A stretch of DNA of 64,000 nt from positions 1-64,000 of the forward strand of contig CACZBW010000005.1 of NCBI GenBank assembly GCA_902779575.1. The letters are read 5' to 3'. How positions within the stretch are numbered: position 1 is the stretch's first letter; every line of letters begins with the position of its first letter. This DNA comes from an uncultured Lachnospiraceae bacterium (GTDB taxonomy: Bacteria > Bacillota > Clostridia > Lachnospirales > Lachnospiraceae). The translations under genes were made by a program, and so were the position numbers. This document shows positions 18,190 through 25,542 of this stretch, one piece after another. The notes under the pieces are model-generated. The model was not told the DNA's origin, did not search any database, and was given only the letters and a program-made list of their open reading frames with translations.

Positions 18190-19512
18190 TCAGTCAGTTG
18201 TAAGCTCCGGATACTTCTCAACGATCGCGCTCTTGAACTGTCCAAGGGCTGCGTCATAATCAGCGTTGCCGTCGAAGTAGTTCTTCATAGCGCCCTGGAA
18301 CTCTTCGTTGCATCCCTGGTCATAGGGGCTGATGTTGCTCATGTCAACGTTCTCAGCGCCTGCTGCAAGCATCTCATAAGGATTCTGGCCGCCAAGCAGT
18401 GCCAGGTTTCCGGAATCATCAGCAGAAAGCTCGGCAAGAACTTCTGTGTTGTTGACGCAGTCAGCATCAACCTGAGCGATTTCCTTCATAACAGCGTTGT
18501 CGGTGGTCATGGTAAGGATGATATCCTTAACCAGCTCCGGATTGTCGGTTCCCTGTGCTGCGCAGATCCAGGTGCCGCCCCAGTAGAAGCTCTGCGGTCC
18601 GGTTACAAATCCCCATCCGCCGTCATAAGCTACAGAACCTTCCTCATCCGCATGCAGGCAGAAGTTGAAGAACCATGCCGGCCCAAAGTAGCAGAATACT
18701 TTACCTTCCGGGAAGAAGCCCTTTGCCCAGTCATCGCTCCACAGCTCAGCAGTGGTGGTCTGTCCTGCGTCAACAGCTGCCTTGGAATCATCGACCCATG
18801 CCTTGATGTTGTCATCCAGAACTACCTTGCCGTCCTGTACCCACGGACCTGCAACGTTGTTGGAATATACACGATAGGTATCATTGACTGTTGCAGCCAT
18901 CTTGTAGCCGGCCTCAGCCATCTTCGCTGCTGTCTCGGTATAGGTTGCCCAGTCCTTGACTGCTTCCTGAACCTCAGCGGGATCGTCGGTGCCAAGAACT
19001 TCCTTGGCGATCTCGCGGTTGTAGATCAGGCCTGCGGAGCATGCCTGCCAGGAAGATCCGCGCAGAACTCCGTTCGCGTCTGTTACGATATCCTTGGTGT
19101 ACTGATACTGTTTTCCAAGATCATCAGCGGTGATGCCCAGCTCTTCGAGCGGCATAGCTACGTTTGCATCCGCATCGACATACTTGAGAGCATAGTCTGC
19201 TTCCACCAGGAAGATATCAACCTTCTCATCCGCTGCGGCATCAACATTGCCCGGCAGTACGGAGTCCAGATTGTTCTGATAAGCGTTGTCATCGGACGGG
19301 GTGATGATCCAGTTGACGGTCACATCGCCGATCTTGCCGGTCGTTGCATCAACTTCTTCATATCCCGGATAGTGATCTGTGATGCGGCTCTTGAATTCCT
19401 CATTCCAGACCTCAACGTTCAGGACGCTGCCTTCTTCTGCGAATGCTGCTCCCGGAATGACCATTGCTCCAAGAAGTGCCAGGCTGAGCAGACTGATAGT
19501 ACGTTTCTTCAT
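18190..19512 (-). CDS. Extracellular sugar-binding protein of an ABC transporter
   Basis: The 440-residue protein has a 25-residue signal peptide (charged MKKR, hydrophobic core, AFA-EE cleavage site) and a mature domain of the family 1 solute-binding type (for example the GLIYNREIAKEVLG and PQSFYWGGTWICA stretches). It should capture an oligosaccharide and deliver it to the two permeases downstream. The signal region has no lipobox cysteine, so unlike most Gram-positive binding proteins it cannot be lipid-anchored by the usual route. A consensus promoter and a palindrome lie upstream. Confidence 0.9.
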   Translation of the reverse strand: MKKRTISLLSLALLGAMVIPGAAFAEEGSVLNVEVWNEEFKSRITDHYPGYEEVDATTGKIGDVTVNWIITPSDDNAYQNNLDSVLPGNVDAAADEKVDIFLVEADYALKYVDADANVAMPLEELGITADDLGKQYQYTKDIVTDANGVLRGSSWQACSAGLIYNREIAKEVLGTDDPAEVQEAVKDWATYTETAAKMAEAGYKMAATVNDTYRVYSNNVAGPWVQDGKVVLDDNIKAWVDDSKAAVDAGQTTTAELWSDDWAKGFFPEGKVFCYFGPAWFFNFCLHADEEGSVAYDGGWGFVTGPQSFYWGGTWICAAQGTDNPELVKDIILTMTTDNAVMKEIAQVDADCVNNTEVLAELSADDSGNLALLGGQNPYEMLAAGAENVDMSNISPYDQGCNEEFQGAMKNYFDGNADYDAALGQFKSAIVEKYPELTTD

Positions 19513-25129: not shown

Positions 25130-25231
25130 CGTTTAATTCCAAGTAATTTACTATGATTTCAACTAAGGGGATTATAGGACATGAGAAATGAAATAGCAAG
25201 TATTTCCGATAAAAATACTTGGAATTAAACG
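25130..25231 (-). promoter_or_regulatory. suf promoter enclosed by a 16-bp perfect inverted repeat
   Basis: The promoter reads TTGCTA (25199-25194), 17 nt, TATAAT (25176-25171). Outside it, CGTTTAATTCCAAGTA (25130-25145) and its exact reverse complement (25216-25231) lie about 20 nt downstream of the start point and about 50 nt upstream of it. Paired identical sites around a promoter suggest a looping repressor sensing iron or Fe-S status. A smaller hairpin (AAGTATTT/AAAATACTT) overlaps the upstream arm. Confidence 0.7.
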
Positions 25232-25262
25232 GGCCAGGATCCGCACCACAGCGCCGACAACG

Positions 25263-25507
25263 CAAAAGACCCATCCACATGACACATGCAGCCGCATGTG
25301 TGTCCGTGGATGGGTCTGACGCGCGCGCGAGCACTTCGCGCTGAAAGCCTCCCACCCTTGTAGCCCTGCGAAAGCAGCCAGGCAAAAACCCGACTGCCTC
25401 CGCAGAAGCAGTGGGTGGGAGAATAAAGTGGGGGCAGCCAGTACTGCCCCCAGTATATACCGTACATAAAACAGTCTCTGCTGAGAGCTTAACCCTTTGA
25501 TTCCCGT
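25263..25507 (-). ncRNA. Candidate structured non-coding RNA with own promoter and terminator
   Basis: On the minus strand a promoter (25514-25542) is followed by four stem domains. H1 is GGGGGCAG/CTGCCCCC (25430-25451). H2 is CTCCCACCC/GGGTGGGAG (25349-25357 with 25413-25421), enclosing two smaller hairpins as a three-way junction. H3 is GCGCGA/TCGCGC (25325-25341). H4 is a 12-bp stem AGACCCATCCAC/GTGGATGGGTCT (25267-25317) with an inner GACACATGC stem, followed by TTTTGCG. An 80-codon ORF inside has no ribosome binding site. I do not recognise the family. The GAAA loop in H2 reads as a GNRA tetraloop only on the plus strand, so strand is not certain. Confidence 0.45.
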
Positions 25508-25513
25508 GCCTAC

Positions 25514-25542
25514 AGTATAGCCCTGTTATTTATGAAATTCAA
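25514..25542 (-). promoter_or_regulatory. Promoter for the candidate RNA
   Basis: TTGAAT (25542-25537), 17-nt spacer, TATACT (25519-25514). No protein gene begins downstream on this strand before the sufC start. Confidence 0.6.

Follow-up and report, generated by a model that had tools for sequence, protein, structure and literature searches.

Results and Discussion

An intergenic unit on the minus strand, at approximately positions 25260–25542 of the window (the whole stretch of 64,000 nucleotides that was analysed, from the genome of an uncultured gut bacterium), most probably constitutes an independent structured noncoding RNA gene, with a probability of about 0.9. The RNA would be approximately 245 nt long in the species of the window, with greater lengths in species that have an extended leader. 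It apparently represents a structured RNA family undescribed so far and restricted to one genus of the family Lachnospiraceae. An independent structured RNA had been proposed in a first-pass annotation of the same DNA, and the proposal is now supported by covariation, by the conservation of both promoter and locus, by the presence of a single copy and by the lack of a conserved reading frame across the first hairpin (H1). Comparison of the homologous sequences shows that the predicted fold is under selection and that some bases are constrained beyond the needs of pairing.

Promoter and 5' End

The sigma-A-type promoter noted in the first-pass annotation, TTGAAT-N17-TATACT, is present on the minus strand at positions 25514–25542. 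Within the window such a match is ordinary (three were found in 3 kb, against a shuffled mean of 1.9), and the promoter is considered convincing because it is kept at all 12 loci of the family, not on account of the match in the window alone. The pattern TTGAA[A/C/T]-N17-TATA[C/A]T, with its spacer of 17 bases, was located upstream of H1 in each of them; in dinucleotide shuffles of the same stretches this pattern, which was composed after the loci had been inspected, was found in a mean of 0.003 of the 12 loci and in one at most (300 rounds).

We infer that transcription starts near position 25507. This position is overlapped by the motif GCACGGGAA (25501–25509, minus strand), recognized by eye; GUACGGGAA or a close variant is present at 10 other loci, so that 11 of the 12 are motif-like by eye, and the motif is degenerate in locus L011. 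The leader that follows (25453–25500, minus strand) varies among species, the distance from the putative start to H1 being 56 nt here and 37–181 nt across the 12 loci. A stem GAAAG/CUUUC, tentatively regarded as closing the leader, was obtained in the predicted folds of five of the 12 loci (L003, L004, L005, L008, and L009).

Predicted Fold

After the promoter, the minus strand carries in order H1, a long hairpin P2 with the inner stem P2b, hairpin H3 and hairpin H4, down to approximately position 25264. The predicted fold had an energy of -146.8 kcal/mol, compared with a shuffled mean of -103.1 (sd 4.9, z -8.9), and none of 200 shuffles was as low. This energy is not taken as proof, because long near-perfect hairpins drive the z value; it is the comparison of homologues that indicates a fold beyond chance.

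Hairpin H1 was confirmed at positions 25452–25429, with a stem formed by GGGGGCAG and CUGCCCCC in which eight of 10 pairs are invariant in 11 sequences. It is followed by the linker CUUUAUU (25422–25428), the final five bases of which, UUAUU, are identical in the 11 sequences. Hairpin P2 (25349–25421) consists of an outer stem, CUCCCACCC at 25421–25413 with GGGUGGGAG at 25357–25349, and of the inner stem P2b, 25407–25394 with 25377–25364. The outer stem is the 9-bp GC-rich helix that had been described as closing a three-way junction; the helix is present, but both the predicted fold and the homologue consensus show one long hairpin with internal loops (P2 and P2b) in place of the junction. 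The small GC hairpin H3 (25320–25341), GCGCGA/UCGCGC, was also found as proposed and includes the CGCGCGCGCG block (25329–25320), identical in the 10 aligned sequences.

The 3' hairpin H4 (25264–25317) pairs 25317–25306 with 25278–25267, has an additional inner stem and ends in a short U-rich tail. As regards the terminator-like stem with a U-tract that had been reported here, the strong hairpin was verified and the U-tract proved to be short (UCUUUUG). H4 is a probable intrinsic terminator, with a strong and covarying stem and a poor U-tract. A terminator scan restricted to loops of 3–8 bases did not list H4 and listed H1 and part of P2b as terminator-like, so that transcription may end elsewhere.

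Carrier Genomes and Covariation

When 61 genomes were searched by BLAST with 271 bases, 12 of them had strong matches (E of 4.3e-12 or lower), and all 12 belong to the genus of the window; the other matches listed were pieces of the same 12 loci or at chance level. The same 12 of the 19 genomes of the genus were recovered with R1, a covariance model built from 11 core sequences, including G014, where the element is cut by the contig end. Weak R1 matches in G003 (19.0 bits) and G004 (18.7 bits) were discarded after reading the sequences. Every carrier has one convincing copy, at the same locus, and no scattered near-identical copies were found. In L011, the copy of genome G007, promoter, H1 and P2 are kept and the region of H3 and H4 is absent; it is possibly a decaying copy.

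The comparison of related genomes that had been suggested as a check revealed compensatory changes in P2b and H4. Pairing is kept in 98.1% of the cells of the core alignment (11 sequences), compared with 44.8–57.8% when partners are slid by 1–3 columns. Five pairs change on both sides, all of them in P2b (five of its 14 pairs), a number reached by five of 500 shuffles; when compensatory changes are counted as cells there are 13, reached by none of 500, although these shuffles, like those for the 3' part, ignore relatedness and their counts are guides and not probabilities. In the 3' part (10 sequences) 95.7% of cells pair, against 29.3–47.3% when slid, and 11 pairs change on both sides, which no shuffle of 500 reached; the outer stem of H4 has compensatory changes in eight of its 12 pairs. 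The further pair types of the 3' part, 20 in total, did not exceed the shuffles (323 of 500).

H1 and the outer stem of P2 are near-invariant and show no compensatory change, so the comparison neither supports nor contradicts their pairing, which rests on prediction. Mismatches or changes in P2 are confined to L003, L004, and L005.

Sequence Constraint

Hardly any variation was observed in the (CG)5 block, H1 and the arms of P2. Mean pairwise identity was 91.7% for H1 and its 5' flank, 94.0% for the linker and the 5' arm of P2, and 100% for the CG block, with lower values in the P2b region (61.2%) and in H4 (56.3%).

SufB was unsuitable as a species marker and rpoB was chosen, because only seven of the 19 genomes of the genus hold a SufB. 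The rpoB set comprised 15 of the 19 genomes (G001, fragmentary, was omitted; G012, G013, and G016 had no match; the sequences of G002 and G007 were partial). The rpoB DNA of nine carriers had a mean identity of 82.0% (77.1–90.4). In the eight carriers compared at both loci, the H1-linker-P2 module has 36 invariant columns out of 40, and 12 of 3855 rpoB windows of 40 columns are as invariant. The module is constrained like the best-kept parts of rpoB, at about the level of the most conserved 0.3% of windows, and is non-protein-coding. That it is more conserved than every stretch of rpoB was also considered and is wrong, as those 12 windows match or exceed it.

Coding Potential

It is very improbable that the unit is not an RNA gene and represents instead a palindromic repeat, an array of terminators separating operons or the gene of a small protein. 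Such readings could draw on the strong inverted repeats, on the terminator-like appearance of H1 in the scan, and on an 80-aa ORF (25225–25467) that spans the unit; two of the frames across H1 have some upstream start in eight of the 12 loci each. Those starts, however, lie at differing places, the third frame has none in any of the 12 loci, and for no frame across H1 was an upstream start codon found in all 12. The ORF begins after CTCAGCAGAGACTGTTTT, where no Shine-Dalgarno sequence is recognizable by eye, in agreement with the first-pass annotation, which had described it as the only ORF inside and as lacking a ribosome binding site. Indels between H1 and P2 and around P2 shift the reading frame, and the bases that vary within H1 do not occupy third codon positions in the frame of the ORF. 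The occurrence of one copy per genome at one locus and the conservation of the promoter likewise argue against a repeat or a terminator array and for an RNA gene.

Comparison with Known RNA Families

None of 4227 Rfam families matched the unit in the window at gathering scores. With relaxed limits the matches were far below those scores and mostly to microRNA hairpin models, the lowest E being 0.13 for the window and 0.095 for the relatives. No match to RF00013 (6S RNA) was listed at the unit at either limit. The search recommended in the first-pass annotation has therefore assigned the unit to no known family.

That the unit could be a divergent 6S RNA, or belong to some other known family that the Rfam models fail to detect, is suggested by its similar size, its own transcription unit and its housekeeping-type promoter; like 6S RNA, it would be independent, GC-rich, highly structured and of roughly 200 nt. 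Identity with 6S is disfavoured because a 6S RNA gene is located elsewhere in the same genome; 37 of the 41 genomes searched, this one included, have one, 35 of them above the cut-off. 6S RNA is formed by one long helix with a central bubble, whereas the unit is built of several distinct hairpins and has an invariant H1/P2 module, a layout that we take to be unlike 6S. Together with the absence of any match at gathering score, this leaves only a slim chance for a known family, and the unit is regarded here as a family of its own.

Standalone structured bacterial noncoding RNA candidates have been obtained by comparative genomics, for example those of PMC2864571 and PMC11109978. The unit resembles those candidates in its conserved intergenic fold, covariation, lack of a protein gene and open function, and differs in being confined to one genus and in having no match at gathering score among the 4227 Rfam families. 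No description of this RNA was apparent among the papers listed.

Gene Neighbourhood

Upstream of the unit and on its strand, in the window as well as in the 11 neighbourhoods fetched, is a sodium/solute symporter gene, and in five of the 12 loci a MATE exporter gene, on the opposite strand, is situated between the symporter gene and the unit. Downstream of the unit there is an ABC transporter operon in seven loci, a SUF operon in two and a glycoside hydrolase family 3 gene in one; the remaining two end at a contig end.

The unit could be read as a cis-acting leader, a riboswitch or attenuator of the downstream operon, since such leaders likewise have a promoter, a folded domain and a terminator-like hairpin before a gene on the same strand; the orientation agrees with that of the following gene in 10 of 10 loci with a visible gene. 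The downstream genes of the unit differ, however, and most of them have promoter-like sites of their own: TTGACA-N17-TATA[T/G]T between H4 and the gene in all seven ABC loci and TTG[C/A][T/A]A-N17-TATAAT in both SUF loci, that is, in nine of the 10 loci with a visible gene. The exception, in favour of a leader, is the glycoside hydrolase locus L031, where the patterns of the ABC and SUF sites revealed no separate promoter. Because of these sites most of the downstream operons need not depend on the transcript of the unit, and the cis-leader reading is disfavoured. No antiterminator is visible either: in only two of 10 loci does the upstream pairing of the 5' arm of H4 exceed the shuffled mean, and then by 0.6 sd at most, in a test of simple pairing with single-base shuffles that left out L008 and L011. 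A leader is thus considered quite improbable, and transcription of the unit as a separate gene is preferred.

Several additional features were observed in this region. The SUF promoter of the window, TTGCTA-N17-TATAAT (25199–25171), lies between the arms of a 20-nt inverted repeat (25130–25149 and 25212–25231; 62 nt apart, 95% complementary), which may act as an operator of the SUF operon or form a leader fold for it. In seven loci (L022, L024, L025, L026, L028, L029, and L030) a conserved block like ACGAAAACG[G/A/T]TTTAG[T/C]GAT lies just 3' of TTGACA-N17-TATA[T/G]T, upstream of the gene for the ABC substrate-binding protein, and presumably resembles a LacI-family operator. The product of positions 18190–19512 of the window (minus strand), likely a substrate-binding protein beside two ABC permease genes, had no Pfam or NCBIfam match at E 0.001. 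A SufB like that of the window (E up to 1e-100) was not found in G002, G005, G007–G009, and G012–G018; the SUF operon is patchy in the genus, and part of this pattern may be due to genome incompleteness.

Distribution and History

Seven of the 19 genomes of the genus showed no convincing match by BLAST or R1, so that the RNA would not be needed in every species. The absence is uncertain for three of them: G015 and G016 are 70% and 72% complete, and in G017 the contig ends after the symporter gene. In G010 the symporter, MATE, and glycoside hydrolase genes are kept with no element between them. In the midpoint-rooted rpoB tree (15 of the 19 genomes) carriers are placed on both sides of the root, with two nodes having a support of only 0.64; the non-carriers are G003, G004, and G006, grouped with G017, and also G010 and G015. 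The common ancestor of the genus probably had the RNA, with several losses afterwards; horizontal transfer may be an alternative.

Searches outside the genus were performed at several levels. R1 gave one extra match in 299 genomes of the family under strict filters with 13 candidates scored per genome, that of G279, where the matching sequence is a hairpin resembling a terminator, GGGGACAG..CUGUCCCC. A more sensitive mode, applied to 40 genomes of the family, retrieved G022 (31.7 bits, E 3.6e-4) and two weaker matches, G079 and G081. The G022 match (L119, 1524–1605), from another genus of the family, is a long perfect hairpin with P2-like arms CUUCCCACCCC/GGGGUGGGAAG and without H1, flanked by two genes that by eye are apparently convergent; it is probably a bidirectional terminator and may be homologous to the unit. 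The three matches were provisionally judged to be chance or analogous. R1 found only the genome of the window among 39 genomes of the order. Among 397 genomes of the family, mostly one per genus, the exact pattern of the P2 stem occurred only in the genus members G000 and G018; the exact core pattern was absent from viral contigs, and blastn at E 0.01 returned nothing from phages and plasmids. Within the limited reach of these searches the family appears to be restricted to the genus, and a diverged homologue may exist elsewhere.

Proposed Mode of Action

The RNA would be transcribed from its own housekeeping-type promoter, most likely ending at H4, and would act in trans. H1, the UUAUU linker and the outer stem of P2, together with the CG block of H3, would form a recognition surface for a protein or ribonucleoprotein; P2b, H4 and the leader would serve as a scaffold, free to change in sequence while pairing is kept. 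This proposal as a whole, an independent RNA gene acting in trans through a protein-recognized module, is given about even odds. Recognition by a protein, as the specific mechanism of the near-invariant module, is put forward tentatively and with somewhat less confidence.

An alternative is a trans-acting antisense RNA, in which the C-rich UUAUUCUCCCACCC and other invariant bases would pair with the G-rich ribosome binding sites of mRNAs. Small RNAs of Gram-positive bacteria often use C-rich seeds against Shine-Dalgarno sequences, and UUAUUCUCCCACCC, which a 2-base indel immediately precedes, is identical in all 11 sequences. This reading is given less weight, since the C-rich part lies inside a GC stem, where its partner is conserved; moreover, the BLAST matches listed for the unit in its own genome were the locus itself, including its palindromic H4 read on the opposite strand, and matches at chance level. 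An antisense role is doubtful, though it deserves to be kept in view, and recognition of the module by a protein or ribonucleoprotein remains the preferred reading.

A bolder and unlikely extension is that the unit represents a new class of RNA in which the H1-linker-P2 module is a dedicated site for binding a central protein such as RNA polymerase, an RNA chaperone or a factor that associates with ribosomes, and the unit would then be a genus-specific global regulator. Its role, if this were true, would be comparable to that of 6S or CsrB-type RNAs.

The interest of the finding is limited by the narrow range of the family and its open function. It indicates that reading raw sequence for a promoter, a fold and a terminator can reveal a real RNA gene. 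The uncultured Lachnospiraceae gain from it an RNA gene family with comparatively good support and no match in Rfam, and, with the bases under sequence constraint now mapped, its binding partners can be sought directly.
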